Program-made: the position numbers and the translations under genes | Source of the DNA: Antedon mediterranea | Lineage: Eukaryota > Echinodermata > Crinoidea > Comatulida > Antedonidae | DNA length: 64,000 bases | Direction: 5' to 3' | NCBI RefSeq assembly: GCF_964355755.1 | Contig: NC_092672.1 | Location: 32,360,501-32,424,500 of the forward strand | The notes under the pieces: generated by a model | The model's input: the letters and a program-made list of their open reading frames with translations, nothing else | Database searches by the model: none | What the model was told of the DNA's origin: nothing | Shown: positions 4,050 through 46,085 of the stretch, in pieces | Position numbering within the stretch: the stretch's first letter is position 1 | Layout: each line of letters opens with the position of its first letter

Positions 4050-5224
4050 GTTCATGAATTGTTTTCCGAGAACCAAATTGGTACGGTTTGTGGGCAAAAG
4101 TAAACACTTGAAAACCTGCTGACTGTATGTGAGGCCATTATAGCCATTAAATTATCATTATATTGTGATACAAAGAACAAATCTGCAAAAAACGAACCGT
4201 GAACTTAAACTAAAAGAGGAAAAAACATATTATACAAATAGTAAGTAAAATAGAAGAGAAAAACGGTTTTCGTAATAAGACAATTTGGTAAATCAAAAGA
4301 CATGCCAAACCATAAAAGGGATCCCGAGCGATTTATATTTTAGTTGGAATAGTAGACATACATAACAGAACAATGCCGACAATAGTTTTACATAAGTCAG
4401 AATAGGATTTTAGTAAACGATACTAAAGTTATGAATGACGAATAACAAACAAAAAACAAAACACCAATATAAATCCAAAAGCAAATTCCTGAAATATAAC
4501 AATGCTTTTTCGATCTCAAATGATAAATCAAAGAAAAAAGAAAAAGAGGAAAATTGCCAGCATTCCTCCAGGTTAATGAAAGAGTACTGAAGAAAAATTA
4601 GAAATACTGTATATAAAACCAGTCGAGAGCTGTATGAGTGGTGGACTGGAACAACACCGATAACTTTACTGTATATAAAGCCAGTCGAGAGCTGTATGAG
4701 TGGTGGACTGGAACAACACCAATAACTTTACGGTATATAAAGCCAGTCGAGAGCTGTATGAGTGGTGGACTGGAACAACACCAATAACTTTACTGTATAT
4801 AAAGCCAGTCGAGAGCTGTATGAGTGGTGGACTGGAACAACACCAATAACTTTACTGTATATAAAGCCAGTCGAGAGCTGTATGAGTGGTGGACTGGAAC
4901 AACACCAATAACTTTACTGTATATAAAGCCAGTCGAGAGCTGTATGAGTGGTGGACTGGAACAGCACCAATAACTTTTTCGCATTGTTTTTTTCAATATT
5001 ATTATTATTATTGCATCTTCTACGATTGTTTGATTTAATAATCTCGTTCAATTTGTTCAGTTGTTTATATAGACATAATAATAATAACTAACAGCTACAG
5101 ATTGTCATTGGACCAATGAAGTGTCTCAAATATAATAAACAAATAATGCTCAGTAGAAGGAAAGATAATGATTGGTTGATTACTCAGATTCAGTTAAGAT
5201 CTCACAAAACTAAACACCACCCCT
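4050..5224 (+). promoter_or_regulatory. Upstream region of the PARP gene, duplicated with it
   Basis: A block with TTTTCCGAGAACCAAATTGG and CTTGAAAACCTGCTGAC recurs at about 14500 and 16200. ATTGG/CCAAT words lie near 5107-5180 (CATTGGACCAATG), with equivalents at 14650 and 16382. The block therefore travelled with the gene in both duplications and probably contains the promoter. A 62-bp tandem array interrupts it. No clear TATA box could be assigned. Confidence 0.35.
4608..4980. repeat. 62-bp tandem array upstream of the PARP gene
   Basis: Six units with GAGCTGTATGAGTGGTGGAC at 4626, 4688, 4750, 4812, 4874 and 4936. They are nearly identical, differing at a few bases. Each contains TGTATATAAAGCCAGTCG, a TATA-like word. 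It lies about 250 bp before the putative first exon. Confidence 0.95.
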
Positions 5225-6209: not shown

Positions 6210-9200
6210 ATGCAGGCACAAATAAGAGGCATTTGCAGGGATCATTTAAAAGGAAATTGCAGTAGTGGCAGTATGTGTCAGAGAATGCATTGTAATCTGC
6301 CTTATCAATGGCAATATAACGATGGCAGGCAGTGGCTTAAATTCAAAGACAGAATAAATTTGAAATTGGAAGGTAGATTCTGTGGTGACATCAATGATGC
6401 TAAGTCTTGGTCGTATTCTTGGCAGAACCGTCGTTCCACTGTGAATTCTACTGTGTAAGTTTTGGCCTCTTTGAGGTTGAGGTGCACAATAATATTATTG
6501 AAACAAAATTTAAATGCGTAATTACGAATTTACTTCATAAAGAAATTCATGTTTATTTCTAACCGGAATAACCGAATAGGCTAGGTAGGAAATTCAAGAA
6601 GTTCACCTCACGGTTTTCTTTCTCGGAGCCAAAACCTGATGATTGCAATACAGTCTGTAATGTGCAAATGAAATGTTGAAAGTTTAACATTCATTTAGAA
6701 ATGACCATAGTATAAAAAACACTTTTTAAGAAACCTTCTATTCTGTACCCATAGTTTGAATTTTATTCTAATGTTTATCATCAATACCTGTTTTAAACCT
6801 TTGTACAGATCTGTGACTTTTGATGACATGTGTAGATTTGATGGGCTAAACAAATTCTTAGTCCAACGCCTCGAGGTCGAAGGTGACGATGATAATTCGG
6901 ATGCTGATCTAATATCTCCTTGGATATGGTATTTCAATGGTGATGACCGGTGGATGGAATATAGTAAAGAGGTAAGTTGTAATCAGTAACCGAATACATG
7001 TTCGGCTGTTCTCAAATGTACTTTTTCATTTACGTCAGAGTAATTTCGACTGGATTCTGCCAACAACAATCATCACCTTGCTTTTATTATTATTTATTGT
7101 AATACAGAATTCAGACAAAGTAAACAACGCTTATGAAATTGGAATCACAACAGCTAACTTTGTAGCTGGTGATCAACACTACACTTTAAACTTCTTCGAT
7201 ATGTCCCAAACCAATCACGTATACGAAACTAAACGGTCTGTTTGTCGAAGACCAGTGAAACAGATAAAATCAGAAGATGTTGAGAAGTACAGAGAAGATA
7301 AACCTTGGTAAAAGACTATATTATTGTGTATTATTCCTTGTATTTTATTTATTTTGGTATTTCAAATCAGAATAACACTCTATAGGCTTCTAAATCATTA
7401 CAGTTAGCTATCATTATTAAACTGAAACGAATAAATATTATTTATTATGTAACCTTTAAAAACCAAGTAAACGGTAACTGTAATAGCCCACCTTCTAGCT
7501 CTGAATCGGAAGATTCTGAATGTGAATTGGAACTTACTTATGATCTGTGTTTTTCATCCTGTGTGGATATCGATGCTTTGTATGTATTTTGTTACCTTTG
7601 TACAGCAATTCTTTCTTTTAAATTGTTCACATTTTTTTTAGTACAGTATATATTAGTGTATAGCTACTGCACATTCAAAATATTTAGGATTCTGGGATAT
7701 TTTTAGTCGCGTGGGCGCGACTCTATAGTTCACTATGTCGGTCGGTCGGTCTGTCGGTCTGTCTGTCGGTCCGGTATCACTATGCGTTTTATCGCTTTTC
7801 TGTACTTTTTGAACTGTTTTGATGTCAACATGTGGGCATTTACGTGAAATTGTGCACCTCCTATTGTGAATGACGTTAGAGTTGCGCAACGTGATTTACG
7901 TGCGATTTAACGATTTTCTCGTATTTAACATAGGTCAAAAACCAAATAACATTTTAAATTGAAACTTTGCAGAAGTTTAATTTATATCAGGCGCTAACTT
8001 TCTGTTGAAAAAAAATGTGTGTTTTACACAAAGTTACGCGCGCATGCGCATTTAAAATTTTAAAATGCGCAAAATTAATTTTTAATAAACTTTCTACGCG
8101 TTTCTTGTCATTTTAAGCATGTCAAAAATTCCCATACGCGCGCAAATTTTTACGCGCGCGGTGCGCACGTAGCGTTAAATACATACTTTTTTCGCGTGAT
8201 TTATGTTTTTGCAGCCTTTTATAATAATTTTACCAACTTTTAAACAATTTCGACTTAAAATTACGTCGTACGAGCACGTCGAATTGGATAATTTGCGCAC
8301 GTTTTTGATGAAAAAGTTCAAAAATTCGTAAGACTCTATAGTTCACTATGTCGGTCGGTATGTCTGTCGGTCTGTCTGTCGGTCCGGTATCACTATGCAT
8401 TGTAGCACGCGACTTAATGGCTGTTGGCCTTGTTATTTGTAGACTGTACTGTACATTGGTTGTTTTTTCCTTCTAAAAATAAATTCTTTACCAGAATTTT
8501 AAACTAAATACTGTAGTATTACAAAAATTACATATTCCATTGAATATAGTGTACAAAGAATATAAGAATATTTTACAGACGTGTACATAATTCGAATGTT
8601 GATATTTCACCGGATTTTTAAATGGATAAAGGAAAAAAACTGTTCATTCCATACTGGAATATAATGTTGGAAATCTCATTTTCTTTGTAAATATCGACAT
8701 AATTTTTGTTAAGATCAGAGTTAGATCTACTGCCATAAATTCACAACGCTAGTTTATTTTCCATACTATATATACTTGACACTGCATGTAATCTTATTTT
8801 TCATTCAAACACATTTACGTACACCAGCGGTTCCGGGCCTACATTATAGATTGACCGTCCATACAGTACACCTGAGAACAACTCTTTTCATCGAATAATG
8901 TGCTCTGTTACAACCGCTAATGTAGAAAACGCCAGCTAATGTCGAAACAACCGCTAATGTAGAACAATCCACCGCTAATGTAGTAAAACCTCCAGCTAAT
9001 GTAGAAACACCAACTGCTTATGTAGGCCTAGTAAATACAAAGTCATGCTCCTATCTTTCCCATTAGGATTTCAATTACAATGAATATCAGTAATTTCAGA
9101 TGGTCGCAGCCTTTTTGATGATAACATAATATAAGTGTTAGGCCTAGAGATGGGAATACAGTGTGCAAATCATTGTGTTTATACTCCATCCAAGGCTTCT

Positions 9201-10439
9201 TCCGAATAGGAATACAGGCATTTGGCTCATTAATGTGTACAGTATACTCGCCTTTCAACAATATTACCTACTTTTATTGCAGGTTACACAGCCTTACAAA
9301 AACACATCGACTTGTAAGAGTTAGTAAGAAAACAGATAGCAAAGAACATAAAGAAATATTAGAATTGTTTACAGCAACTCTTCCAGATGGAGCAATAACT
9401 CAGCTTGAGCGGATTGAAAATGAGTGCTGTAGGGAGGCATTTGCAAGGTATATTTTTAATTTTGTGTTATCGCGCGAAAATATAATCCCTGTTGGAGAAA
9501 AATATAATTCCCTCGGAGGATCTTAAAATGTTATAAGCAGTCAATATCTGTATATAGGCTACTGTATAATATCTAATATCTACAGGTCAACTAGTATTGT
9601 GATTCAAAGACCTTTGACTTTTTTATTCTTCAACTTCAACTTCAACTTTATTTTCCAATGTTGTTTTACAATGATAAATAATATTAAATTTTAAAACATA
9701 AGGAAGGAGCTAGAAAATAGTGTAAACACTAATCAAGTCCAGCCCCTTTTACATAAATTATACTTAACTAAATTTTTACAACTATGGGCAATAATTTCTT
9801 TCAGGCCTACAAATAATAAAAACTTAATAAGTTAAAACAATCCCATTTATATATTTTAAAATTTAAATATTACTACACTTTTTCATAAATAAGATAAATA
9901 AAATAAATAATTATATAACTAAAGTAAGAATTGCTTTAATTTCCGTTTAAATATAATTTTAGAGTCATGTTTAATATTTTCTGGTATCTCGTTCCATGAA
10001 TTAGCACCAGAATATCGGACAGAAAATTGACCAACATTACTTTTGTATTTTGGAATAGCAAGATTTCCCCTTGCTTGAAATCTCGTTGAGTGACGATGCT
10101 GGGCATGTGAAAAATATTCTGGAATTCCCACGGGAAACCTGCCATTAATACTGTCATGAACAAATAAAACTAACTGAAATGTATGTTGCTTATAAATATT
10201 TAGTATCCCCAGTTCTGTAAATAATGATGATGTATGTGCTAATCTATCAGAGTGTGTTATAGTGCGTACAATTCGTTTTTGGTTAAGGTGTATAGGTTTT
10301 AAATTTGTTGAATATGTGTTCCCCCATGCCTCTAGAGCATAGGATATATGGGGTAGAATAAAACAATTGTATAAGAGTAATAAAATTGACTGAGGAACAA
10401 AATTTCTCAGTTTATAGAGCACACCTGCCTTGGAACTAA

Positions 10440-10473
<34 letters not shown>

Positions 10474-13280
10474 TCAAGTGTGACCCCTATATACACGGTT
10501 GATTCTACTTCGTCAATGTCTGTTCCTTTAACATGTATTGCTCCGTTAGTTTTAATAGCCGTGTGTTTACCATGGAAAATTATATACTCTGTCTTTTTTG
10601 TATTAATGGTTAATTTATTTAAATCACACCAGTCCACAATATTTTTAAATTTGCTATCTATATACTGCATGTCAATATCATCATGTGGATTAAAAGTATG
10701 GAACAAACTGGTATCGTCTGCAAACAAACGAATATCAAAGTAGTCAGTCACATGTGCAATGTCATTGATATATATATAAGGAACAATGTAGGCCCCAATA
10801 CTGACCCTTGGGGTACACCGCAACTTATGGAAAGTTCATTTGAATCGATACCGTTTATACTCACATATTGTTTTCTGTTATATAGGTAATTTTTTTAAAA
10901 AGCCAATGGTAACCTCCGAATCCCATATGAATATAATTTATTTATTAGAATGCTATGGTTCACCGTATCGAAGGCTTTTTTTAGATCCAAGAATATCCCC
11001 AAAACTACATTTCCCTTGTCAATTTCATCTGACAGTTTCTGTGTCAGGTCTGTGATAGCTAGTTTTGTACTATAATTCTCTCTGAAACCATATTGGTGAG
11101 AGTACAATAAATCAAAGCGGGATAAATAAGATGTAAGTTGTTTATTAAATATTTTTTCAAAAACTTTACTAAACTGCGGAAGTATAGATACCGGTCTATA
11201 GTTACTTGGATCAGACGGTAAACCTTTTTTAAAAATGGGTATCACTTTCGCCTTTTTTAACGCATCGGGGAAAGTCCCCTTAGAAAACGATAGATTTATT
11301 AAATATGCGAGGGGTTGACTAATGTAATTTGCTGCTAAAATAATTAATTTGGGGCTTATCTGATCTATTCCCCCACAGCCTTATTTTTATCTAATCTAAT
11401 TAAAATATCGTATACTTCATTTTCATTTGTACCTGTATGTTTTCGCAATATCTCAAAAAGAAAAAAAAAGTAAAATCTAAAGGAAGGTACATAAAGAATA
11501 TATTTTAGAATTGCTATGCAGTGGCATTTATGAATTTCTTTGCTTAAATAAACATTTAAAACCATAAGCATCATTTTATCAATTTGTTTAAACAATTATA
11601 TTAAAACAACTTTTATTATTGTTTGCTTGGGGTTAAATATCAAATGATTGAGTTACGATAATGTTGCAGTTTAAAGAATGTTTGATAGATCCAGATGTTA
11701 GTGACTCATAATAATTTTATATTCTTGTATCTTCACCTTGTTATTAAAATGTCTTCAATATATTGATTTCATAATGTAAATTATGATGAAGAAAAGTCTA
11801 ATAACGATTATTAACAACGAGTTCAATGTCGACATAATCGCTCACACACTACTGGTAATCTTTTCAGTTCCATTCAGTTACTGAAAATTCAACGTTAGTG
11901 CACTTCTGGTCGAATTGAGTTGCTTTCAGTTCCTGGTCGAGATAAGCCTACCTTAAGATGGATTTGTTTTTAGTCGCGTGCAACGCAACTCTGCAGCTCA
12001 CATGTCGGTCGGTTGGTCGGATGATCGGTGAGTCGGTCGGTAAACACTAACTCAAATTGGAGCACGCGACTGCAGCCATGTATGTGGCCTTGTTATTAAT
12101 ATTGCCTGTACAGTATCCTTCCTATTTTTACTTTAAAAAAACAACTGAATTGGGTTTTTTCTTTTTCACAAGGAAAAATGAAATCATGGTGAAGAAAAAC
12201 TCTAATAGAGAAGTTGAAGAGCTGCGACTGTTTCACGGAACAATGCATGATAAAGTTGATGATATCTGTTGTGATAATTTTGACTTCCGCTTGAGCGGTA
12301 CACGAGTTGGTCATGTTTATGGACAAGGAGCTTATTTTGCTACTTCAGCAAAGTACTCCAATGATTATGCTGAAGAAGATGGTGTTGGTATAAAGAGGAT
12401 GTTTGTTGTAAGAGTTCTTGTTGGTAGCTACACAGTTGGCACAAAAGAGATGCGCCGGCCACCACTTAAGTACCCTGAAAATAAGTCTAAGGGGTTCTAT
12501 GACTCTTGTGTTAATAATGTAGCTAGTCCGAGTATTTTTGTAGTGTTTGATAACGATCAGGTTTATCCAGAATATCTCATTACTTATACAATTCCACCGT
12601 ACAATGCCTACAGTAACCCATATTCAGCAAGCTACTCTTCAATCACTTCTTCAAATTCAAACCAACCCCCTTACAGTAACCCATATTTAACAAGAAGCCC
12701 ATCTACCAGTCGTTCTTTGACTACTTCACCAAATTCAAATCAACCATCTAACGATTTGGGAAGCGGGGGCATCAATAAAGATGACATCATGTTATACTTC
12801 TTTTATTTTATGCTTATTTGGGTTACCCCATTACTTATCTCATTATTCTTTGAGTTAATTAAATTTACTTTTTATTTGCCTTTTGATTTTATTCTGTCAT
12901 TATATAGATTTATTCTGGATACTTTTATTCTGCTTTTTTATCTTTCCTATCTGTTTCCATTATTAATCAAGGTCATTTTGGGTACTCTTATTATTTGTTT
13001 TCTTTCGATTGTACTTATTTCTTTATTCGAATTAAGCGATAATCCTGAATATCTTTTAGGTCTACATCTGTTTTTGTATTATTTTATCCTGCTTCTTGTT
13101 TTTAAGCCAATTGGTTTTGAGTGCATATTTTGTATTGTTATTCTTATCATGTTTCTTGTATATTATATCCATATTATCAAGTTTACCAAACTAGTCAGGT
13201 TGCAAGATTTCATTAAAAAAAGTAAGTTTCATGAAACCTGTCTAGATATCATCGATAAGTTAAAAGAACACCTAACCTAA
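6210..13280 (+). CDS. CCCH-WWE-PARP mono-ADP-ribosyltransferase with multi-pass membrane tail
   Basis: Coding exons read as 6210-6454, 6809-6971, 7108-7307, 9283-9447 and 12173-13280; all junctions are GT-AG and phases match, giving 626 residues. An extra in-frame exon at 7487-7579 would give 657. Residues 9-27 form a C-x7-C-x5-C-x3-H finger. A WWE-like segment (LPYQWQ) follows, then a WWE domain (WIWYFNGDDRWMEY, about 117-202). The PARP catalytic domain is about 205-400, with His279 in LFHGT, Tyr312 in GAYFA and Ile394 in EYLITY. This H-Y-I triad is that of mono-ADP-ribosyltransferases such as PARP12 and TIPARP. A Ser/Asn/Pro linker (400-460) leads to about five hydrophobic segments (462-604) and a short basic tail. 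PARP12, ZAP and TIPARP have no such tail; PARP16 has a single C-terminal anchor. The start is the first ATG in frame; a stop in the putative first exon lies upstream in that frame. Substrate unknown. Confidence 0.85.
7487..7579 (+). CDS. Probable cassette exon of the PARP gene (31 codons)
   Basis: A 93-base segment between the WWE exon and the first catalytic exon has an AG acceptor (taatag) and a GTATGT donor. Read in the phase left by the 7307 donor it has no stop, and it rejoins 9283 in frame. It encodes an acidic, serine-rich stretch (PPSSSESEDSECELELTYD). Skipping it also keeps the frame and gives Trp-Leu at the junction, which resembles family members. It may be alternatively spliced. 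Only transcripts can decide. Confidence 0.5.
7704..8434. mobile_element. TAGTCGCGTG-ended element, copy 1
   Basis: The left end reads TAGTCGCGTG; near the right end is CACGCGACTTA, its inverted complement, followed by a shared GGCTGTTGGCCTTGTT. Just inside each end lies the same module, CTATAGTTCACTATGTCGGTCGG with GTCTGTCGGTC repeats and CCGGTATCACTATGC, in direct orientation. The interior has many CGCGC words (about 8030-8170) and no coding frame. It is non-autonomous and sits in the PARP intron after 7307. Exact ends and target duplication are unclear. Confidence 0.65.
8905..9028. repeat. About 20-bp tandem repeat in PARP intron
   Basis: The unit CCGCTAATGTAGAA, with a variable spacer of A and C, recurs six or so times (CAACCGCTAATGTAG, CGCCAGCTAATGTCG, CTCCAGCTAATGTAG and so on). 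It lies about 250 bp before the first catalytic exon. Confidence 0.75.
9630..11460 (-). mobile_element. 5'-truncated CR1/L2/Jockey-group non-LTR retrotransposon
   Basis: On the minus strand the reverse transcriptase reads in broken frames. First comes NENEVYDILIRLDKNKAVG near 11440-11380, then a frameshift. Then come PIFKKGLPSDPSNYRPVS and FLDLKKAFDTVNH (motif A, about 11245-10960), FADDTSLF (motif C, about 10730) and the C-terminal domain ending RKLKQFLL at 9919. The 3' end, near 9630-9650, has a short (TTGAAG)n tail as in CR1-type elements. The endonuclease is missing, so the copy is dead. It lies in the PARP intron between the two catalytic exons. A run of 30 T (10443-10472) interrupts the reverse transcriptase. 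Confidence 0.88.
11971..12094. mobile_element. TAGTCGCGTG-ended element, short copy 2
   Basis: A 124-bp version has the same TAGTCGCGTG left end, one GTCGGTCGG module, and GCACGCGACTGC followed by GGCCTTGTT at the right. It lacks the long interior, so it is an internal-deletion derivative or a solo unit. It ends 78 bases before the acceptor of the last PARP exon. Confidence 0.6.
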
Positions 13281-14399: not shown

Positions 14400-15770
14400 T
14401 TGTTGAAGTTAAGGAAGGCACCGTCACTGAGATTTATATCACTGTTATGAAAATATTTACAAAATAAATATCATTATTAAACAATACAATTGTTCATTAT
14501 TTCCGAGAAGCAAATTGATAGTAATTGGTACCGGGCAGATACTTGAAAAATTGCTGACACATCGGTACCTTAAGTCCTTCCAGATAGATGTACATTAAAT
14601 ATAAACAAATTAATAATTAATATATAATAAACAAACTAGAAAGAGACTCATTGGCTGATTGGGTGTCGCACAAAACTACAAAAACATGCTTTCCCAAATG
14701 TGTCTATATAGGTTAAATGTTTCAAGTGAAAGCAGAGAAAGTTGCAGTAGTGGCAGTACGTTAGACTTTGTGAACTTACTTAATAATATTAACGGTGGCG
14801 GTGGCGTAATTTCAAAGAGAGATTTGTTTGTTTCTTTGTTGAGATTAAATTAGAAATTGAAAGGTTTTGCCTTATTCACTATACATTCTATCTTTTGGTT
14901 AGGCGATTGTTTTAGATGTTTAAGTCTCAATATAATGTCGTGACTTCATAATATTTCTAATTAAACACAATATTTGTTATAATACTGTAGTGGAATTCAT
15001 GAATATGTTTTTAACAGACTGACTCAGGACATACGGAACTAAATCATGAAATCTTCAATAATATTCAATTAGTCTGGTTCATATTTTCTAGAAAGGATTT
15101 TGTAATAACTTTTAGGGAAAGATTTCTAGTCTTCATTTATAATATGTTGAATTAAATATGACTTATATTTTTCTCTCTTTTAATTATAATCGCTAACCCT
15201 GTATAACCTAACCTTAGTTGAGCGTCACAAGGTCAAAGGTGAAATTAATTATGATGCTTTCTTTGGTCATAGATACTTGATATTATTTGAATAAAGATTG
15301 GTTGAAAATATCAGAACTTTCCTCCATTTTGATTTTCCCTACCTTTCGACCGACTGAAGTTGAATATATGTCCAACTATATTCACTTAAATAATCTTTCT
15401 ATCAATCAGTATTTCAATTACAATTTAAAAACAGTTTTTATTTCCAGATAGTCACCGCCTTTTTCTGAGTGTAACCGCCTAAGGAGGCCTACACAATTTG
15501 AAATACAAACACATTCTGTACATCGTAAATACAGAGAAATGTTAATATTTGTTTTTTGCTTATCAAAGATACAATTCAGTTGTCGAGAAGTACGTGACAA
15601 CTCGGATGTTTTTATAGAGATTTCAGACTATTTCTGGTTTGTTTATTTCCTATTAAAAAAATATTTGCTATTGATACCATTTGGCGAAATGGCCTTTTAT
15701 CAATTGCATGGAATAATGATATCTGTGGAAAGGTACGGAATATATAATATAATAATATAACATTTCCGTA
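14400..15770 (+). pseudogene. Decayed tandem copy B of the PARP gene
   Basis: Parts line up with the intact gene in order: the upstream block (14490-14570), a first-exon-like GTGAAAGCAGAG joined straight to the CCCH-exon sequence GTTGCAGTAGTGGCAGTA (about 14741), an AACGGTGGCGG...TTTCAAAGAGAG block, a WWE-exon relic near 15215-15265, and the sequence before the first catalytic exon (about 15410-15500). The finger cysteines are lost and no catalytic histidine region is seen. It is a truncated, internally deleted relic. Confidence 0.55.
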
Positions 15771-16104
15771 ACAAATTTTCAATGTGAAGTTAAATTGTTA
15801 TTATTGTTAAACTGTTTTTATGTTAAGCAGTCTTGTCAACTGCTTTATTCTGTATAATTAAGACTCTTTAGGTAGTTCCAATATTAAAAATGTCAATAAT
15901 AAAGGAAAATAAATACTTTGATACAAAGATGGTTTAAATTGTTTACGTCCGTGACGGTCATACGGCAAAGGAGTTATGTCAGAGTCTATCTGAAAAGGTA
16001 CCGTATGGATCATAATACCTAAATTTATTTTTTTGTAAGTAAAAATAATTTAATATTAAAGTTATGCCTTTTGTATTTTTTTGTAATTATGTATGTTGCT
16101 TTTT

Positions 16105-19085
16105 TTTTTAAAGGAATGCATCATCAGTGAGATGCATATCGCTGTTTATGAAAATATGTTCTAAATCAATATTAAACTAAAAATACTTTGTAAACTTTCC
16201 GAGAAGCAAATTGATAATAATTACCACAAACTTAAGTGGTACCGGATGATTAAGGCACTTGAAAACCTGCTGACACATACCTTAACAGATATCTCCAAGA
16301 TCTGCTTTCAGAAAGATGTGCATTAAATATAAACACATTAATAATTAATATATAATAAACAATACGTTAACAGGAAAGAGATTGATTGGCCGATTGCTAT
16401 TGTGTATCTCACAAAACTACAAAACACATAGTTACTTTCCCAAATGTGTCTAGTCTTTTTCAAGTGAAAGCGAAGAAAGAAAGTACCGTGAACTACACAC
16501 CAGAAATAGGTAAGCCAGCTGTCTGAAAACAGTTTCAAGCTACATTCGGTAGTGAAATAAAGGCTTTTTTTTTTTACATTATCCAGTGGCAAACCAGCAA
16601 AAATATTACAAATTTGTCGCAACAACCTAAAAGGAACCTGCACGCTAGCAGTATGTCAGCAGAATTTGTGAACTTACTTAATGATAACGGTGGTGTTTTT
16701 TTTCTCTCTTTTGTGGGGGCAACCCACTTTTATTGCAATGATAAACAATATGGTGAAGGTTACAGTATATATGTCTATCTATCTATTTATCAATGACTAT
16801 TTAAGTGATATTACACAGACAGAAGTTAAAAGATTATATAAAATATTTTGATAATGTGTTGAAATCTAGATAAAAAACAAACATGTATACAGAGAAAATT
16901 TATATTACAGAGCTAAAACGATATAAAGATTAATAATCAGTATTAAAAAGAGATTCGATATAATATAAATATATATGATAAAATGGTATATTGCATTATA
17001 AGATTATGTTTTGTTTGAATACTTTTATAAAATTGTATAGTTTTACATTTTGAACATAATATTGCTTTTATTATTTATATGATAAAATAACAAACTAATA
17101 AATATTGCAAAGCTAAACCCAAACCGAAGATAACGGTGGTGTTAATGTAATTTCAAAGAGATATTTAATTTATAAAATAGATTTTGCAGCAGAATATCAA
17201 TGATTCTTTGTTTGGCCTTATTCAAATATAGCCTAATATAAATACTGCCATGTATGTGCTAGCCTCTTCGTCATTGTTTTAGATGTTGATGTCCCAATAT
17301 AATGAGAGAAACTTACAGTATTCAAATAATGTTGTTACTTCATAATATTTCTATTAATAATAATTATTATGATAATGTAGTGGAGTTCGCTTCGGGAGAA
17401 ATTGATGAACATTTTTCTAACGAACTGACTCGAAACGTAATTTTCATCAAATATCCAACTAAATTTATTTGTCTATGGTTCATATTGTTTAATATAATCA
17501 CTTTGAAGATGGATTTCTAGTCTGAATTCATATGTTGAATTATATAACCTTTAACCCTGTAAAATATTCTTAGTTAAGCGTCACGAGGCCAAAGTTAAAA
17601 CTAATTATGATGCTTTTTTTATCATATTTCTTTGGTCGTGGATATTTGATTTTTTTAATTATAAAAATTGGTTGAAAAATACTTTCTTCCATTTTGATTT
17701 GATCTACCATACGACCCACTGTATTCACTTAAATAATTTTTCTATCTATCAGTATTGCAATTACATTCAATCATCAGTTTTAATTCCAGATAGTCTGAGT
17801 GGAACGACGAAGGAGGCCTAAACAATTAATATTTAAAGTACAAATTCTGTTGACTCCACAGTGGTAACCCCACAATATGAGCTTCCTACCCTAATACCCA
17901 CTCTTAGACCATTAGTGTAGGCATCAGAATATACTTTCATATTACAGGTTCACAAACCTACTTGGAAAGCAAACTAAAAAAAGACATGATAACAATATTT
18001 ATTTGGAAAACACTTTCATACAGGACACTGCATCTATAAGTATTTGTATTTCAGATTAAACAAACCACATCAACTTGTAAGAGAAAACAGATAGCGAAGA
18101 TTACAGAAAAATATCTAAATTGTTTAACGAAACTTTTCCAGCTTAAGCCGATCGAAAATGAGACCTACAGGTAAACAGCTGCAAGGTATTCAACATGGTA
18201 AATAACTAATACTTACATTTACAAAAACTGGGGCAATTATAGAACTAAAACCTTAAGTTATTTTAATAAATTGTACATTTAATTGGTTGATCCGCTCTCT
18301 CCAAGCAGATCTCTTGTTGTAATTTGCTGTCATTTTCTTACTTCCTCCTCTATGTTGGCGCATCATCTCATAATTATAATATTACATTCCGAAAAACGTT
18401 CGTTAATTACACTTATACTTGCCTACCTAGTTGTATGCATTATGATTTTGTTTTTGTCTGGCACTAATTCACTGCTTCAATGAAGATATTTAACGTAAAT
18501 CCACGTGTTACATTTTACCAAAATTAGACAAGATGATGTTTTAGTTTAAAGAAAGTTCGGACTATAGTGACCACCAAATAGCCTGCAATATCTGTCTTTC
18601 CTTGTTTTAAAAATGAATTAATCAATTCTATCTTTTTATTTAAAAGGTAAAAGAACCTCTTCAATTACTTGGTCAAATACAAACCAACCATCTCACAGTA
18701 ACACAAACTCGACAAGTGAATATCGCCCACCTACCAGTCGCTTAAGTAACCAACAAAACAGGAGACATAATTTAGGAAGACAGAGGAAGAACATCAAGAA
18801 CAATGACTTTATGATTTATGTTATAGGCCTACTTATTTTTCTTGCAGTAGCAGTACAATTTTTCGTTTATAAGTACGCTTTGGTTGCATTTAAGGTAGTT
18901 TTGGGTATTATTTTAGTTTATTCTGTTTCCTTTGTATTTTACTTGGTATTCCATCCAACTCATGGTCCCGTCTCTATACATAAGCGGGTGAAATATTTTT
19001 TGGGGGGAGATGAGTAACTGAGCTGGGGGTTATTCGCTCCAGCGCTGTAGACAGCGTTTCAGATCAATTTAGCCTTAGGCCTATA
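16105..19085 (+). pseudogene. Decayed tandem copy C of the PARP gene, catalytic domain lost
   Basis: The order follows the intact gene: upstream block (16195-16290), a first-exon-like GTGAAAGCGAAG (16458), a CCCH-exon relic after the acceptor TTATCCAG (about 16587) with the finger cysteines lost, a WWE relic (about 17575-17610), a copy of the first catalytic exon (about 18052-18165, with stops), and the linker plus membrane tail (18649-19017). The segment carrying LFHGT, GAYFA and EYLITY is missing. Copy C is closer to copy B than to the intact gene in the promoter and WWE blocks. Probably a pseudogene, although its last exon is open. Confidence 0.6.
18647..19017 (+). CDS. Open terminal exon of PARP copy C: linker plus two membrane segments
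   Basis: After an AG acceptor (TTTAAAAG) the frame is open for about 123 codons and ends in TAA. The first part is a Ser/Asn/Thr/Arg-rich linker that matches the intact gene's linker (SNTNQPSHSN against SNSNQPPYSN, PPTSR against SPSTSR). Two hydrophobic segments follow. The second (FKVVLGIILVYS) resembles IKVILGTLIICF in the intact protein, so two or three membrane segments between them have been deleted. It ends in a basic tail. It could be a pseudogene remnant or a small membrane protein. Expression unknown. Confidence 0.35.
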
Positions 19086-21045: not shown

Positions 21046-21623
21046 TTTGTTTGTTATAGCCTTTGCTGTTCTGTGTGGTGAGTGTTGTGTTGTTTTGCTG
21101 TGTTAATATAATATAACTGTTATTGTTTTGCTGGTTTGGTAGTACAGTTTGGTTACAAATGACAGTAGGTTAGAATAATCGATCTACAAAACCACGTTAG
21201 TTTTATAAACATTGAGTTTCATGATAGAATTATGATTAATATGTAAAAAGTTAACTATTATAGATTTAAGTTTACGACTTATTTACGCCATAATTATAAC
21301 CAAACTACAGGCTAACGTTGTAGGCCTGCAATAAGGTATATGGCCTTACTATACAATATAGAGGTATACGACGAATATGTTACAAATGAATAAACGATAT
21401 CAAAATAAAGAGTTCTTACATTTCCAGCATTTGGTGTAGTCACTTTCACGTTAAATTCTTCTGAGCCTTCCTCAGCTCTCTCATTCAGTGTATATTTGTC
21501 ATGTTGCGTGTGTTGTTAGTGGGCCACGCTGTATTGGTACACAACATACCTTTACTACCACCTGTGTACTTTTTTTCTTACACATTTTATTATTTTTCAA
21601 AAATCCAGAGGGCAGTATTAGTA

Positions 21624-24215
21624 ATGGCGGTAATTGCAATGGAAGGAAGGGTGAGCCTCCGATGGTTTTGTCAGGGGGCTGGGACATTTCTCATACCGTT
21701 TGCTGTCGATTTAGTTAAACCAACGGAAAGTAAAATAAATAATTTATACAGTGAATACAAATTAATGGGCATATTACTTTATGTTGCAGTAAATTACGTG
21801 TTGATTTTTGTAACCCTAAAACGATATGCCAGCCAGGTAAGTTCATGATGGACCATTCCACGACAACGTACGTGTCTGTCGGGCGATCAAAATATATTTA
21901 GGCCTAGGCCTATACCTTACTTCACTTTCCGAGGTCGGCCTAGGAATAAACATTTCGGATTGCATTGCATTTACTACTACTACCACTAGGCTAGCCTCTC
22001 TAATCTAACTCACTCAGACCTAGTAAGTGGGCTACTGTTACTAGCCTAAAAAGTGCAGTATTATAAAAAAGATAGTGAGATTGAGTTGACCCAATACTGG
22101 AGGAAAAATAGGCCTACTAGGTCTAGGAGGCTAGGGTCTAAATAATCCCCAGCAAAAAGAAAATCAGAAAATGTATGTGTTTACCGTTAATTAAATTAAT
22201 TAAAATTTGATCAAATTAAATAAGATTTTTAACCAAATTTCCATCGTATGTAAATACAACTTAGGCCTAAACTGAAATCATTTCAAATTAATTAAATTAT
22301 TGATTAATTATTTCATCTTCAGATAGCCGTAAGAGCATGTATGCTCGGGGTGGTATTTGGCTTAGGCCTAACACTAGGCATTCAACCCACCTCATGGAGG
22401 ATATTTGGCTGGTACTGGTCTCTACTTAGCTTCTTCCACTTTTCAGAATATTTCTCAACATCTATTTATAACTTGGAGAGTTTAACGCTTGAGTCGTTTC
22501 TACTGAGTCAGAGCGTTGCATACTACTTAGCAGCCATGGCAAGCTGCTCAGAATTTATAATAGAAATATACTTTTTTCCTGGTAAGTTTATGGTAATCAA
22601 AGCATAAAAAAAACCAATCTCTATAGATTTTATAGTTATTTTTGTACATCATCATTTCAGCCAATGTCAGCTCACTGCAGGGCAAATGCCTCCTGAAGCT
22701 GAACCCATCCTTTTCTGTCCTGTACAATGCCATCCAGAGCAAATGCTACAATCTCAACAAATATAATAAAGAAAGGAATTCTAATTGGAGACCAATACTT
22801 TACATTATAGACAAAAAAAAACTTGGAGAAGATTGAAGCTATGTTGTGATTAAGAAAAAAGCACATGTGATTTGAACTCTGACCCTAACATTACCATCAA
22901 CCTATAACTATTAAATATATTTTCTTATTTCAGGTTTAAAAAATTACTGGTATATAAGTTATTTTGGTCTACTACTAAGTATTGTTGGTGAGGTCATGCG
23001 GAAAGCAGCCATGTTGACTGCCGGTAAAAGTTTTAATCATTATATTCAATTCGAGAAGGCCAACGACCATCATCTAGTAACGCACGGGCTGTATTCCTGG
23101 TCACGGCATCCAGCATACGTTGGTTGGTTTTACTGGAGTGTAGGGACGCAGGTATAAACAATTAATTTACTTTTAAATGATTTAATTTAAATAAATTTCA
23201 GATAAATTACAAGTTTAAATGCCGAAAGAACTGCAGCACAAACCTATAAACAAAAGTCTAGTTCAAAGGTGATCATTTAGCTTAATATTGGTAAAGAGAA
23301 AAATATTTGGCACACATGGAGTGTCATACCTATACTTGAGCTACAGTAGTTGAAAAAAACATCCACACATCCTCTGGTGGCGCTATTTAAAAAGGAACAA
23401 TAACTAGAGACTTCTAAGTTACCTATACGCACAGCCCATAAATAAATTTTAAAATAGTGGCACACATGGTGTGTCATACCTATACTTCAGCTAGTCCATC
23501 AAAACACCTTGTGGTGGTGGTGGCGGCTAGTGTATTTAAAGAGACTAGAGACTTCCAAGTTATCTAAGCAGCCTATAAAAACTGTCATACCCATATTTAA
23601 GCTAGTTATAAATATAAACAGAAACAATACATAGAGACATGTGGCAGGTCAGGGAAAAATTTCATTTAAAAATTTTGTTTAGCAAAATTGCTAATCAAAC
23701 TGATTGTTGAGTCGAGAAACATAGTTTTGTATTGCATTTTTTGCTACACAATTTGCGAAATGTGTAGCAATAAGGTTGTTTTGTATAGCTTTTTGCTATG
23801 CTACACTGGCGAAATTATTCCCTGCAGGTCTACTAAAGCTCTGTCTACACTATCATACTTGTCATATCACACCATATTTGGGCACATCACACTTTTTTTT
23901 TGTCAAACTAGTTTGATAGTGTAGACAGAATCAGAGAATCTCGCTTTTTCCTGGTCTACTAAACAAAAAGCTGAAAGAATATATAAATAAACTTATATTA
24001 ATATCCTATTTTCTCTGTATTTTTTTATTTAGATCACGCTATGTAATCCATTGTGTTCGATAGGCTTTGCGTACACATCTTGGAAGTTCTTCAAAGAACG
24101 TATAGAAGACGAAGAGATCACGTTATTAAACTTTTTCGGGGAGGAGTATCTTGAATATCAAAAAGAGGTACCAACTCGTCTCCCCTTCATATCGGGATAT
24201 AAACTACAATACTAG
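21624..24215 (+). CDS. ICMT: Protein-S-isoprenylcysteine O-methyltransferase
   Basis: Four coding exons: 21624-21836, 22323-22581, 22934-23151 and 24033-24215. All have GT-AG borders and matching phases, giving 290 residues (human ICMT has 284). The enzyme uses S-adenosylmethionine to methylate the C-terminal prenylcysteine of CAAX proteins such as Ras and Rho, in the ER membrane. The family signature is clear: IAVRACMLG, a stretch with HFSEYFSTSIYN, then GEVMRKAAMLTAGKSFNH, LVTHGLYSWSRHPAYVGWFYWSVGTQ-type sequence with the conserved RHP motif, and FFGEEYLEYQKEVPTRLPFI near the end. Several hydrophobic helices precede the catalytic part. The frame is open back to an ATG at 21501, but 21624 gives the usual family length. 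The TAG stop lies inside the first unit of a 60-bp tandem array. Confidence 0.93.
23646..23828. mobile_element. MITE family 3, forward copy in ICMT intron 3
   Basis: GTCAGGGAAAAATTTCATTT ... TTTTGTATTGCATTTTTTGC ... GCGAAATTATTCCCTGCAGG. The same sequence appears inverted at 45632-45810. The ends GGGAA and TTCCC are short inverted repeats. No frame of note. Confidence 0.6.
23834..23933. mobile_element. MITE family 1 (CTCTGTCTACACTATCA ends), ICMT intron copy
   Basis: CTCTGTCTACACTATCATAC at the left is answered by GTTTGATAGTGTAGACAGA at the right. The core has CATATTTGGGCACATCACAC. Related copies lie at 19635, 27505, 35976, 49803, 49982 and 61880. There is no coding capacity. Confidence 0.7.
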
Positions 24216-28921: not shown

Positions 28922-31900
28922 CTATTGTGTTGGAGAGAACACTGGTAGCTTCTGTACCTTTTCTTTGTCCTCTTCTTTCTCATCGTCTCTAGCAATCATC
29001 ACAGTGTGACCGAACCCACAAGCCACGCTGTGTATGAAGATCCCCTCCACGGTCTTGACCTCCTTTGCGCAGGTGGAAGAGCGTGGTCCGTTCTCGCCGT
29101 AGCCCAATTCTCCGTATGTTGGTGATGGGCCCCAACTAATTAGGCTCTCATCTGCCGCTATTACGATAGAGCGATTGCTAAGGGAAGAAAAAATAGAAAA
29201 GTTAAAATTTATATGTATACAATTTTGCTTAATCATAAATTATTCTATATATAAATATTATTTAATATTATATTTAATAGTTTTTATACAATAGTCAGAA
29301 TCGGCGATTCAAATCCGACCTAGTCATGTGACTGGATAGTGGGTATCTAATCACAATCTAGTGTGCTACGTTGTGGGGTTAGATTTTCTTTTATTATCCA
29401 AAACACATCGACTACCCTCCAGGACAATCAACATACATGTGCAGTTCAAAACAGCGACTATGACCGCTGCTTGCCGGGTGTTCGTTTAAATTTTATACCA
29501 AATATTACGCATCAACGATTGAATCTATTTTACAGCACTAACGGCATGATAGTAAAGCTAGGCTAGATTATACTCTGGCCACAAGACAAACCTGCATCCT
29601 ATGCTCCTTATGTTCCAACCAATAAGATCTTGTACAGGCTTAGGGTACATGGTTGCTTCACCTGTTGTCTTGGCTTGACCCCAAAAGAACAGCATACCTT
29701 AGAGGAAAATAAAATGTACACTTTGAACAAATCAGCTGTCAATATCCCAAGTTTACTTGAGAATAAAGCGTGGTTCCCACTAGTGACGCAACACAACGAC
29801 GTAACTCAAAGCAAGTGAATTGACCAATCACAAGCAATGGCTTATTCGCTTATGATTGCTAACTGTCTATAACTTCGCTTGTCATTGGTTAAAACGCTTG
29901 CATTGCGTTTACGTCCTTGCGTTATGTTCTAGTGGGAACCAAGCTTAAAATTCATTAAGATCAATGCATTGTATATTTACAGCACCAATCTGCATCGAAA
30001 ATAGTCCTACACTAACTGTTCTGATAAGCATAACTTAGATGAAAATAAAATGTACACTTTAAACAAATCAGCTGTCAATATCCCAAGTTTACTTGAGAAT
30101 AAAGCGTGGTTCCCACTAGTGACGCAACACAACAACGTAACTTAGATGAAAATAAAATGTACACATTGACTGCCAATATCCAGAATAAATGATCAAAATC
30201 AGTGCATTGTACATTACACTGTACATTACACTGTACATTACACTGTAGCTTGTAAATAAGTCTACACTGCATTGGTGCTAATACACTGCAAACCCATTCT
30301 CTACAATCAATTTCCAGACTAAAGTAAATTCTGGGTTATGAGGCATAACTGATTGTGGGTCACAAGTGGCAAATTAGCCTATGTTATATATACCCACACC
30401 CAATAAGTTTCAAGGCACTATGGTGCAAGATCAGACATAAAATTTATGATCAAACTTCAACAAATAAAAACGTTGTTTGGTCACTATACCTTGCTGTCTA
30501 TGTTAGGTAGGCCTAGCATAGAGTTAAAAATGCTAATTCAAAGTTAATATTTCTTCTCGAATGTATATCACTTGTTAGTATTTTGTATCAATAAAAAAAT
30601 ATGAAAATACATTCAACTTTCCCAATACCGTCGGACACCTTTGGGCCAAATATGTCTGGTTTTCTGGGAAAGTCTGGTTTTTGGAATGTGTTTTTAATGA
30701 TAAAAATAATATATTGGTATTGGGAGAGTTTCTGGTATTGGGAACTGTATACAATGTTAGTACGATACTTACCCGTCTCTGTTATAGCCATTGAGTATGC
30801 TGACCCACTATGGATGCTTTTTACACCTCTATTTGGCATATCAAAAGGCTTTAATAAACGAGGTACTGGTTCATTCTTTGGTCCTTGATGGCCCAGGCGG
30901 CCATAGCCACCAAAACCCCATGTGAACACACGCTTCTGGATGTCTAGAGCAACCTACCAATTGCAAACAGTGTAAATAAATATCCTATCAAAAAATATGA
31001 TTTCTAAAAGATTGAAAAGACAGTTCTTCATGAAGAATCTGTATAAGGTATCCTCTTTAAAGATGGTGAATAAATATAATAAATGTTTAAATAAAATATA
31101 AATCATGCTATTATTAAGAGGACACATTCAGGACCAAAGAAAGTGTCTCCTTAATACTAATAGGGGTGTCCCTTATTAGTGGTTGGCCATAGTGAATGCC
31201 CCTCATAAGTTTCATTGGATCTGGATCTGGATGAATACTGGCGAAGGACCACATGGGTATATGCGCCAGGGGGTGCGTCTCTCGGTGTGCAAACATCATA
31301 CTTAACTGAATTTGGAAAGTGTCCTCTTAATAGGAGCATCCCCAGAATAAGGGAGTCCTAAAGGAGGAGTTTTTGTATACACACAATACTCTTAAAATTA
31401 CTAATAAGTGGAGACAAATATTCACTCACAGTATGGTTAACACCACATACAACATCCTTTATCAAAACCCCAGTCAGCGACTTCACTTGACCTTCACGAG
31501 TTCGTTCTATATACACCTGGATTCGTTTTGGAACTAGTTGGCAGTCAAAGGTCACTTTCTTGGACGTTACAAAGTATTGGCCATCATTATTGTGACCTGT
31601 AAAAATATAAAGAAAACAAGTTAAAGAAAAAAAGAGCACATCTCTGTATGGTTACAAACCAATCATCATTGTGATGGCTTCCAATATTTCAATTCTGAAT
31701 TTGGGGTTGTGACACATACTATCACAACGTTACTTTACCTAATTGACTGTATTCTGGATGGCCGAACGAGTAGAGGCGACCTTTGAGGTCAAGAACCATA
31801 CTGAAGTCACCGCCACATGCTACCTTTGTAATTGGCTGACCATCGTATAGAATCTGAAAACAACAACCAATGACAAACATGTTAAAATAAGCATGACTTC

Positions 31901-34900
31901 CAATACTCAATTGTAAATGTCTACGTAGGCCTGCCTTAAATTTACTATAAGACTTCAAAACATCCAATTGTAAATGCATACATAGACCTGACTAAATCCT
32001 TAGAAAACTCAAAACATTGAATTGAAATATTTTATTTATACTGGGCGACCTCTTCAGACTGATCTCCCAGAGGACCCAGTGGCTGTGACACCCTACTTGT
32101 CTTGAAAGATGTACTAGGTTCTTTAAAGTGCACATAAGCTAAATGTGTACACTGGATCTACGGTTTATAGTCCTTATCCGAGAAGATTCGTTCTACCACC
32201 AGAACCATGAGTGAGCCTCGATGTTATGGCTACGTAATTACTGTTCCACTGTATTAACCGCTCGGCTCGGTCTCCCAATACTCAATTGTAAATGTGTAGA
32301 TCTGACTAATTTTCTATAAGATTTCAAAACATTTTCCAATACTCAATTAAATTTGCCTATGTAGACCATGTAGTTATAATTTAGATCTAACATCAAAACA
32401 TTTCCAAATACTAAATTGTAAATTCATACACAGATCTGACAAAAAGAAGTTGAAACAAGACAATGCAGTTTTGACAAACCTTCTGCGGTACACCAATGGA
32501 CGTCTTGTCCTCTTTGTTTCCTTCACATTGGAATCCAAGACCAAGTTGGCCAAACTTATTCTCACCAAATGCAAATACTTCTCCTTCATCTGTTGGTTAT
32601 AATAGATCATTAAAAAAAATATAGTAATAATCATTTTAAAATACGATACGACGATAGGTTTGAGGATGCAGTAGCATTCAAAACAACCATATTAACTTCA
32701 TTTGCAGAAACTATTTTTAACTTTGTCGGTAGCCATCCTAGCTTCTGATAGAGGCCTACATCCATGGGACATCTGTAAGCAAAGCACCTGATGTACTCAC
32801 TTGTCAAACATAGAGTGTGATTACGTCCACACGCAGCTTCCACAATTGTGTAATCTTTTAGCGTTTCAATGACTGTGGGATTGTCTCTTCGTACCGCATC
32901 ACCGTGTCCTAGTTGCTCCTTATCATTCCGACCTAAAACCACAAAAGAATTTTTATTGCAGAACATAAAAATAAAAATATGTAATCAAGTATAAATGCAC
33001 AAAGAAATGCGACTTACCCCAACTCATAGCTAAGCCTTCTTCTGTGACCAGCAGAGTGTGACAAGCTACAGGGCCAGAAAACACTGCCTTAACGCGAATC
33101 CCTGAGAGTGCAGACAAGCGGTGAGGTGACCAAAGGTTGCGGCCACCGACTGGTGAGCTACCGGGCATTCTGGCATGCTTTGGTACCTGGCTACGCCCCG
33201 TCAAATCCCAATTGGTTCCACCACAAAAAAGTAGTTCTCCTGTAACTGTGGACCCCTTTAATCGCTGAAAATATAACAAAATAAATGTATTATTAAAACT
33301 ACTTAATTGAAATCTTATAACAACAACATTCATTTATTTATGAATCTAAGTCTATAGACATAAAATGTTAACTTAACAAATTGGGTCAAGCAATTTCAAG
33401 GGAGAAGTTTTAACACTATAAACAGCCTCTATTCAGAGGACACCTCTTATTATGGAACACTATGGTGTCCCCAAACAAGAATTGGTCTACTGCAACTTTC
33501 GTCATCATATTTTAGAGCTTTTATCCATTTTAGTAGAATGGAATATGTTAGTTTAGGCTGAGAGCAAACAGATCAAGTATTTTGTTTACATGCTTTGATT
33601 CATAGCAAACTTCTTTCACACAAATCTGAAAATGTTATTTTGATGACAAAAATTATTGTGTTGAAAAGACAATTACATTATTTATAACATTTAATCATTA
33701 TTAAATTAAGACACAAAACACATTTAATAATTATATACTAAAATTAGGGTGTTGAAAAGACAATTATATGATTTATAATCGTTATTATTATTATTATTAT
33801 TAAATTAACAGGCACAGAACACATTTTAAATTATAATTAATTAAGAAACAATAATTTAATTTACAGTAATAATGCATGTTTTAAAAGATGTACACATGAA
33901 ATTATTTTGATATTAATTCTCATTTTAACATTTCACTCGCTCTTACAGTGTTACCAAGTCATTATTTGTTAAACAGTTAAATTTAAGAATAATTTTTTTA
34001 CTATTTAAAATAAATGCTTGTCTGGTTATATCTACGGCCATGTTATTATCATAATGGCTTTGTTAAGTACATTTTCCATTAACTAGTCTTACTAGACCAT
34101 GATCAGATGTACAGGGTTCGCTCGCATGTCAATGCCCTACCAAGGTCACGTCTGTTAAAATTCATTAATCATTACCCATAAAACATTTGTCTTATGAATA
34201 ATTCGCAAGAAAATCTTTTTACTTCACACTCTACATGTTCATATTGAACAAATTTGTTTACATTGATTGAAGATTTTTAATTTTCAAATAAGTTTAACCC
34301 GAACATCACGGTGACGAGTTTATGTCTAGAATTTAAACTTGAAACGTGGTAAACAGAGGGTCTGCTAACAAGTTACGGTAGACCAGGATTTTTGTTACGA
34401 TTTAAGAAGATTAAAGGATATCTAACGAATTACAGTAGAGAGAAAAACTTTATGCTTCTGTACCTCGCGTTAATGTAGTGCTTTAGTTAAAATCATGTCG
34501 CTATTTTCATTAATATTACCGTAAACAAATTACAATAATTCTTTTTGTTCATAGAAGTATAACTTATTGTAATGCAAGAAATATATAACATTTATGATAT
34601 TTTGAGAAATGAAATCTTCTGGTCATGTACATTTTTGTCCATTTCTCATGGAAATGCCCTGAAGACAATTTTGGTGTGTACGAAGGGAGCCTCTAGCTTA
34701 CTAGCAAAGACTAACAGAGCCATGTTAAAGTCTCTGTGGTCTCTGCCCTAAAAACCCTGTTGATATTATTAGCATAGAAGGAAAAAGTTAAATTTCACTC
34801 TTCTCTGATAATATACAGATTACATTAAAATATTTGATCATAATGGCTTGTCTCACTTTTTTCTCACAGATACACAGGACTTATAATAAATAGCAATGCA

Positions 34901-37868: not shown

Positions 37869-40513
37869 ATGGAATCAATTCAACCACTTATTGATAAAGC
37901 TCATGAGCTGATACAACGAGCGGAGCAACTTCAATTGAAGGAACCCTCTGTACGAAGTGTTCCTAAACTGAGTAAAAGAATTAAAGCAGAACTCAACTTC
38001 CTACACACTGTAAGTCACATGGAATGGAGAAGAAGAGCTCTATAAGTTCTATTGATAGGCCTAAAAACTAAAGTTGTGGCACACCTTCTAAATTGTTTAA
38101 TTTCTTTCAGCTCCAAAGTGGAGATGTCGAGTTGAAAGAGAACCAGTTGCAAAGTACCAACCTCACCCATTTGGAGGCAGTGCTCTCTGCTGCTGAAAGT
38201 TTTCCAGGTGTCAGTGACATCTTCTCTGCTAAGCATGCCACAGATGAGAAGGGGAATCAGAAGACACTGGTCATTGATGTCATTGCCAATCATGGTGCCA
38301 TCTGGGTAAAGGTAACTGCCAGAAGAGGACATGCACTGTACAGAGTCTGGCAAGGTGCGATTATTTTTATATATTTGAACAAACCATAGTACCATGAAAC
38401 GGTGTTGGAAAAGAAGCATGCATTGCGCATGCATGTTTTAAATCTAGAGTACTACCTAGTATACAGTAATCAATAAGGTTATTTTGAAATAGTAATAAGC
38501 TTAAATCTAAATAATAACGAAAAAAATAAGTGTGCATACAAGATTATAAAAACAGTTTACATTCTCGAATACATAATGAGCTAATTAAAATAAAGTATGA
38601 ATAATTAATGTTTTGCAGGTGAGGGTGATTATGGCGATAAAGATATAGTTGAACAGGCGCTAGAATACAACAACTTTGCTTCCTCTAATCCAGTCAAGTT
38701 CATCGTCCCAAAAGTACATGTTATGTTTCTCAAGGGTTTACCTTCTGAGGTCAAAGGTTAGCATAAATAAGGTTGAATTCACAATGAACTTATTAATAAT
38801 TTCAATTTTATGAATGGAAAATGTGTATGGTGAAAAATGTTAAATTTAAAATCATATTCTCTGTAAAAATAGGTGAACTGGAATCAGTTGGCATAGCAAC
38901 ACACGGCCATGTCTTAAGCAATTCAGATGATCATAGAATTGATGTTCCCTGTTTTGATTGGTCAGTTTTAGAAGAGGTTAGTTACTGAGGTTAGTTACCA
39001 AACTGAGTATTGGAACATAACCTATAAGGAATTTAGTCGGTGTAAAATCATTTATATTTACTTCTCAGCTAAAGGTCATACATGCTGGTGACCCACGGCG
39101 AAATCGGGTGAATTTGGACGTATCAACCATGATAGCAATGACCAGCAACCTTACCCATAATGGATGTTGGTTTGATTACCCAGAATGCCTTTTGATAAAT
39201 GATCAGGCAATAGAGGAAAGGTGTCACCCTCAACTGACCGCACTTTATAACATTCTAAAAGGTATTGGTAAACACTGGCATAGTTACTTGGTGGGGGTCT
39301 TCTAATTCCACTCAATTTGTAAAGCATTGTCAATTGATGATCAATTATTGTTTGTGATGTCATTTCCTCTTTCTTCAGGTAAACAACTATTTGCCTGTTC
39401 AACAGCCATTACAATCTACAAAGGCATTGTCAGCAATGTTGCAGGTCCAATGGAACAAGCCAGAGCCAAGACACTGCTAACAAAAGTCACAATTGTTGAT
39501 GACTGTGTATCAAAAAGAACACAGGAGTTGGGATGGAGTAATAAGATCAAGGAAAGGCCAAAGGTTAATAATAAATTACATTTTGCCTTGACGGTTATTC
39601 ATGACATTATTGCATTGCTTTGTGGGATACTCTACTTTATCCATGATATAATATTGCATTGTGGGATACTCTACTTTATCCATGATATAATATTGCATTG
39701 TGAGATACTCTACTTTATCCATGATATAATATTGCATTGTGGGATACTCTACTTTATCCATGATATAATATTGCATTGTGGGATACTCTACTTTATCCAT
39801 GATATAATATTGCATTGTGAGATACTCTACTTTATCCATGATATAATATTGCATTGTGGGATACTCTACTTTATCCATGATATAATATTGCTTTGTGGGA
39901 TACTCTACTTTATCCATGATATAATATTGCATTGTGGGATACTCTACTTTATCCATGATATAATATTGCATTGTGGGATACTCTACTTTATCCATGATAT
40001 AATATTGCATTGTGGGATACTCTACTTTATCCATGATATAATATTGCATTGTGGGATACTCTACTTTATCCATGATATAATATTGCTTTGTGGGATACTC
40101 TATTTTATCCATGATATAATATTGCATTGTGAGATACTCTATTATTTTATCCATGACATATTGCATTGTGGGATACTCTACTTTATCCATAACATATTGC
40201 ATTGTGGAAACTCTTTGTATCAATCACATTGCATTGTGGGATATTCTACTGCATCCATGACATAATTCTATTTTTGATAACATTTTAGATCATTTTCGGT
40301 ACTGGAGATGCTTTGGAGATGGTCACGGTTTCTGCAAACGGATCGTTCATTCGTTCAGCTAGTAAGCATAACATAACGTATGCAGTTGATCTCCACCAAT
40401 CACGTACGTTTACTGAGAGGAAAGAAGCACAAGCTGTAACAATAAAGAAAGATGATTCATTTAAAAGGATTAACTTAGAACAGATATTAAAAGATTTACT
40501 TAATCCAAGCTGA
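37869..40513 (+). CDS. C7orf25: UPF0415 family protein, C7orf25 homologue
   Basis: Seven coding exons: 37869-38009, 38111-38354, 38619-38756, 38873-38976, 39069-39261, 39379-39563 and 40289-40513. Splice sites and phases agree throughout, giving 409 residues (human about 421). The match to the conserved but functionally uncharacterised C7orf25/DUF1308 family rests on LKAEL-like KAELNFL, LQSTNLTHLEAV, KTLVIDVIANHGAIWVKV, YGDKDIVEQA, RNRVNLDVSTMIA, FACSTAI, and IFGTGDALEMVTVSANGSFIRSA near the end. No signal peptide or membrane segment is seen. The acidic insert present in vertebrate orthologues is absent, which explains the shorter length. The last intron carries a 39-bp minisatellite. Confidence 0.92.
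39610..40262 (+). repeat. 39-bp minisatellite in the last C7orf25-homologue intron
   Basis: About 16 units of CATGATATAATATTGCATTG plus a 19-base remainder are nearly identical from 39610 to about 40130. Shortened and diverged units follow to about 40262. Because 39 is divisible by three and the unit has no stop in one frame on each strand, long open frames arise on both strands. They are by-products of the repeat. The high unit identity points to recent expansion or ongoing homogenisation. Confidence 0.95.
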
Positions 40514-45631: not shown

Positions 45632-45810
45632 GCAGGGAATAACTTCGTCAGTGTAGCAAAAAAAAGCTATACAAAACAACCTTTTTGCTACACATTTCTA
45701 CAATTGTGTAGCAAAAAATACAATACAAAACTATGTTTCTTGACTAAAAAATCAGTTTGATTCGCAATTTTGCTAAACAAAATTTTCAAATGAAATTTTT
45801 CCCTGTCATG
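45632..45810. mobile_element. MITE family 3, inverted copy
   Basis: GCAGGGAATAACTTCGTCAG ... AAAGCTATACAAAACAACC ... TGAAATTTTTCCCTGTCATG is the reverse complement of the 23646-23828 element with modest divergence. It abuts a palindromic 27-bp minisatellite. Confidence 0.6.
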
Positions 45811-45837
45811 GCATATACTGTATGGTATTAATAGCAA

Positions 45838-46085
45838 TACTTGCCATATATGGTACAGTAATACTTCATACCATATATGGTACAGTAATACTTCATATAC
45901 CATATATGGTACAGTAATACTTCATACCATATGGTACAGTAATACTTCATACCATATATGGTACAGTAATACTTCATACCATATATGGTACAGTAATACT
46001 TCATACCATATATGGTACAGTAATACTTCATACCGTAACCATATATGGTACAGTAATACTTCATACCATATATGGTATAATACAG
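45838..46085. repeat. 27-bp minisatellite of a palindromic unit
   Basis: The unit TACCATATATGGTACAGTAA plus TACTTCA occurs about nine times with small insertions. The core TACCATATATGGTA is a perfect palindrome, so single strands could form hairpins. Confidence 0.9.

Follow-up and report, generated by a model that had tools for sequence, protein, structure and literature searches.

A PARP12-like gene with a predicted multi-pass membrane tail and paralogues that end in CaaX motifs

Human ZAP-L carries a farnesylated CaaX end (CVIS) that is needed for both membrane association and antiviral activity, its ART domain is catalytically inactive, and the reason why a ZAP-type protein must be membrane-located is still debated (PMC8568172). 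Human PARP12 has no CaaX end (PMC8568172). PARPs with membrane segments are sporadic and include PARP16, a sponge PARP12-like protein, and rhizarian and rice examples (PMC4245714). PARP16 has a single transmembrane region, lacks CCCH and WWE domains and belongs to another clade, the segment of the sponge protein is N-terminal and that of a rice Clade 2 PARP is C-terminal, and neither of the latter two is described as multi-pass or as joining CCCH and WWE domains to a linker and tail (PMC4245714).

The gene described here lies in a 64-kb window (C3:32360501-32424500), meaning the whole stretch of DNA that was analysed, and the sequence searched was one 354-Mb, 18-contig genome. Its CCCH-like, WWE and H-Y-I ART domains follow the order of human PARP12, which differs in having several CCCH fingers. 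To our knowledge, human PARP12 has no multi-pass tail. Like ZAP-L (PARP13, ZC3HAV1), the window gene encodes a related CCCH/WWE/ART protein predicted to be held at a membrane through its C-terminus, and the CaaX of ZAP-L is of the same kind as the CICM and CILA ends of the sister genes, whereas in the window gene hydrophobic helices replace the CaaX and the H-Y-I residues are intact. With PARP16 it shares an ART enzyme and a C-terminal membrane anchor. The membrane placement proposed in the earlier note is not new in itself for a ZAP/PARP12-like protein, given the CaaX of ZAP-L (PMC8568172), but the polytopic means is. Judged by its sequence, the window gene adds a new architecture to a known group.

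The gene model consists of five exons on the plus strand with GT/AG splice sites and a predicted product of 626 aa. Exon 1 (6210..6454) holds the start codon, the CCCH-like zinc finger and the start of WWE-1, and it begins where the earlier note placed it, with an ATG at 6210 and an in-frame stop upstream; it ends in a GTAAGT donor and is 57-63% identical to exon 1 of the paralogues L032, L033, L034 and L036. Exon 2 (6809..6971) has an AG acceptor and a GTAAGT donor, is matched by paralogue exons, and encodes the end of WWE-1 and the start of WWE-2, which continues in exon 3 (7108..7307) with a WWE match over the cut-off. Three alternative splice combinations are also in frame and differ only at the exon 2/3 junction, for which the one with the GTAAGT donor was chosen. 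The ART domain starts in exon 4 (9283..9447), with a PARP match from residue 222 of the spliced protein. Exon 5 is a single open frame from the acceptor at 12172/12173 to the stop at 13278-13280, comprising the rest of the catalytic domain with the H-Y-I residues (12173..12596), a Ser/Asn/Pro-rich linker (12597..12785), and a hydrophobic tail with a basic, helical C-terminus (12786..13280). Intron 4 contains the remnant of a non-LTR retroelement reverse transcriptase on the minus strand (9919..11595), outside the gene product and recognized by eye from RT-like ORF motifs. Elsewhere in the window, minisatellite tandem arrays read as repetitive ORFs at 4598-5047 (minus strand), 39576-40265 and 45794-46282, and exons resembling RCC1-type repeats, as in a HERC-like gene, were judged by eye at 28922-33333 on the minus strand.

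The assignment to a PARP12/ZAP-like family held up. The PARP domain scored 71.8 bits in Pfam (cut-off 26.7), the two WWE stretches ahead of it scored 52.3 bits (cut-off 21.1), and among solved structures the ART domain best matched human PARP12 (2pqf, E=2e-34), then PARP15/14/10/13. Residues H21, Y54 and I121 (exon 5 numbering), which we take to be the catalytic triad positions in PARP numbering, are invariant across alignment A1 and matched in PARP12, bearing out the H-Y-I claim. Because the AlphaFold model of exon 5, made from a shallow alignment, was poor (pLDDT 45), the ART fold was taken from the sequence matches. The presence of H-Y-I and a C-terminus reading KLKEHLT with no CaaX set the gene apart from a ZAP (PARP13) orthologue, and the WWE domains and 5-6 predicted transmembrane segments set it apart from PARP16. 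By its catalytic and WWE domains it most likely belongs to the PARP7/12/13 group (Clade 3). The RNA sensing suggested in the earlier note fared less well: it is weakly supported, and we would not at present describe the window gene as an RNA sensor. It has a single CCCH-like finger (C-x7-C-x5-C-x3-H spacing, conserved in paralogues) that scored 12.5 bits in Pfam, below the cut-off of 27, and its WWE domains are of a type known to bind PAR (PMC4245714) rather than RNA. The RNA-binding domain of ZAP/PARP12 has four CCCH fingers (PMC8568172).

Searching the genome with the ART domain identified five copies at C3 32.67-32.74 Mb, ~0.3 Mb from the window gene, as well as two on C1 and weaker matches elsewhere. 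All five exons were found in identical order in four of the five C3 copies, and the stretch examined for L035, the remaining one, yielded only exons 4 and 5. In the earlier note, relatives were said to terminate shortly past the catalytic domain; this is right for the C1 copies L002 and L003, which stop directly after it, and wrong for the close C3 paralogues, which continue through a linker to a CaaX end. L005 and L006, which are 99.7% identical over 1.5 kb and were counted as one observation, end in ...NNKCICM and L007 ends in ...PPEACILA, each in frame with the ART domain; in L011 an ...NNKCICM end lies beyond a single stop codon that closely follows the ART domain, and in L015 an ...NNTRCICM end lies beyond an insertion plus a frameshift. 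Every visible difference among the CICM codons is synonymous, with both Cys codons differing between L005 and L011 (TGT/TGC) and ATC in place of ATT in L015. The linker is mostly common to the C3 paralogues and the window gene, with DNA matches of 69-75% over 79-114 nt to the linkers of L005 and L006, and that of L007 differs. In L007 (1498-2790, C3:32742537) the linker has turned into an acidic repeat (FPDEGAMRASLDWG) and the CILA end is retained. CaaX is present in two clearly different C-terminal contexts, and from the motif we infer that the ends of the sister genes are prenylated. The tree groups all CaaX copies together and places the window gene as their sister (support 80-93), but its outgroup is very distant and it does not settle which anchor is the older.

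Exons of ICMT (protein-S-isoprenylcysteine O-methyltransferase) lie at 21465-22607 of the window, ~8 kb from the PARP gene (PDB 5v7p, E=4e-16). ICMT completes CaaX processing. A functional linkage was considered and set aside, as the proximity is probably a coincidence.

In the window gene, the catalytic domain, the linker (about 12597-12785) and the hydrophobic part share one stop-free frame, confirming the fusion that the earlier note described, and a multi-pass tail of about 145 residues agrees with the hydropathy scales. Between about 12786 and 13200, the Hessa scale gave five membrane segments and the Wimley-White scale six, with a concordant Kyte-Doolittle profile. Basic residues abound in the final ~30 positions (about 13200-13277), for which a helix is predicted. 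Single-sequence AlphaFold modeled the tail as all-helical (pLDDT 74), with a pTM of 0.39 that gives little information on packing. The tail had no Pfam match, no sequence match in the PDB, no convincing Foldseek match (best E 2.8) and no viral relative found.

Such a tail could instead be a recent, non-functional extension: loss of the original stop, which may have been a CaaX end, would have let the frame enter T-rich 3' DNA that by chance reads as hydrophobic residues. This is the strongest of the alternatives, but we regard it as unlikely. In its favour, T-rich DNA encodes Phe, Leu and Ile, the sister genes stop shortly past the linker, and no other homologue of the tail was found in its own genome. 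When the 492-nt tail was shuffled by mononucleotide, a fraction of only 5e-5 of trials was stop-free. T-matched windows from the rest of the 64 kb, 1,397 in number and overlapping, included none that was open, and the other two forward frames of the tail contain 8 and 12 stops. Base usage in the tail is asymmetric by codon position (p=0.003), with 59% T at the second position, whereas the next 3'UTR blocks show no such asymmetry (p=0.83 and 0.89). DNA comparison of the tail with the UTR of CaaX genes gave no match. Because the frame is open beyond chance and the bases are asymmetric by codon position, these results argue for, though they do not prove, a translated membrane segment.

Another copy that carries the linker of the window gene likewise reads on into a hydrophobic tail, which again speaks against a chance extension. 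Downstream of the intact gene are degenerate, partly repeated PARP gene copies (14640-15750 and 16100-19017), among them a decayed paralogue on the plus strand (16597..19017) with an exon 1 remnant at 16597-16662, an exon 4 remnant at about 18066-18180, and no remaining ART domain. Its ORF at 18622-19017 reads through a linker, 77% identical in DNA to that of the window gene over 84 nt, and then into two hydrophobic helices. The tail frame of this copy is also asymmetric by codon position (p=0.009), in contrast to the DNA after either tail (p=0.64-0.89). A KVxLG stretch is common to both tails, and the similarity between them is weak (score 59, equalled or beaten by 4 of 1000 shuffles), so the hydrophobic tails, which occur in these two members of the local array, probably but not demonstrably share an origin. 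A match of the decayed tail to TrbL (E 4e-4, under its cut-off) was rejected as low-complexity membrane similarity.

It is less probable that alternative polyadenylation or splicing cuts exon 5 to yield a working protein without the tail. An AATAAA does lie at 12774-12779, next to the first codons of the tail, but a transcript cleaved at that point would have no stop in frame, a downstream CaaX-like end was sought in the window and not found, and the paralogues read the same exon unbroken to their CaaX ends. Least probable of all, if by little, is a reading of the window gene as a young pseudogene inside a decaying array, as the degenerate copies at 14640-19017, the disruption of two of the five sister genes (a stop in L034, an insertion and frameshift in L036) and the retroelement in intron 4 might suggest, since its five exons are all open, its splice sites intact and its active-site residues conserved.

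The window gene therefore remains best read, with good probability, as encoding a membrane-integral mono-ADP-ribosyltransferase that faces the cytosol and is anchored by a polytopic tail, with sister enzymes tethered by a prenyl group. If the gene is expressed and its product active, the folded part, made up of the CCCH-like finger, two WWE domains and the H-Y-I ART domain, would lie on the cytosolic side and be joined by the disordered Ser/Asn/Pro linker to the membrane-inserted tail. The C-terminus of the tail, being strongly basic, would probably be cytosolic as well, in which case the chain would cross the membrane an even number of times (4 or 6). Through this tail the enzyme would stay permanently attached to an endomembrane, so that ADP-ribose reading by the WWE domains and writing by the ART domain would be aimed at proteins of that surface. 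The sister proteins would reach the membrane through prenylation of the CaaX end, which would be a looser attachment. An antiviral role of the window gene is plausible from what is known of the family.

Taken as a cluster, these genes tentatively suggest, at somewhat less than even odds, that a PARP12-like family gained two unrelated anchors, a CaaX end and a polytopic tail, on the same linker, in parallel to the CaaX of ZAP-L. The CaaX genes combine this motif with an intact H-Y-I on PARP12-like enzymes, a combination absent from both human PARP12 and ZAP-L. Sister genes that share a linker and carry either a prenyl or a multi-pass anchor would constitute a natural experiment in which one enzyme is given different tethers. 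If the two gains are real, membrane placement would be a repeatedly selected property of the PARP12-like enzyme group.
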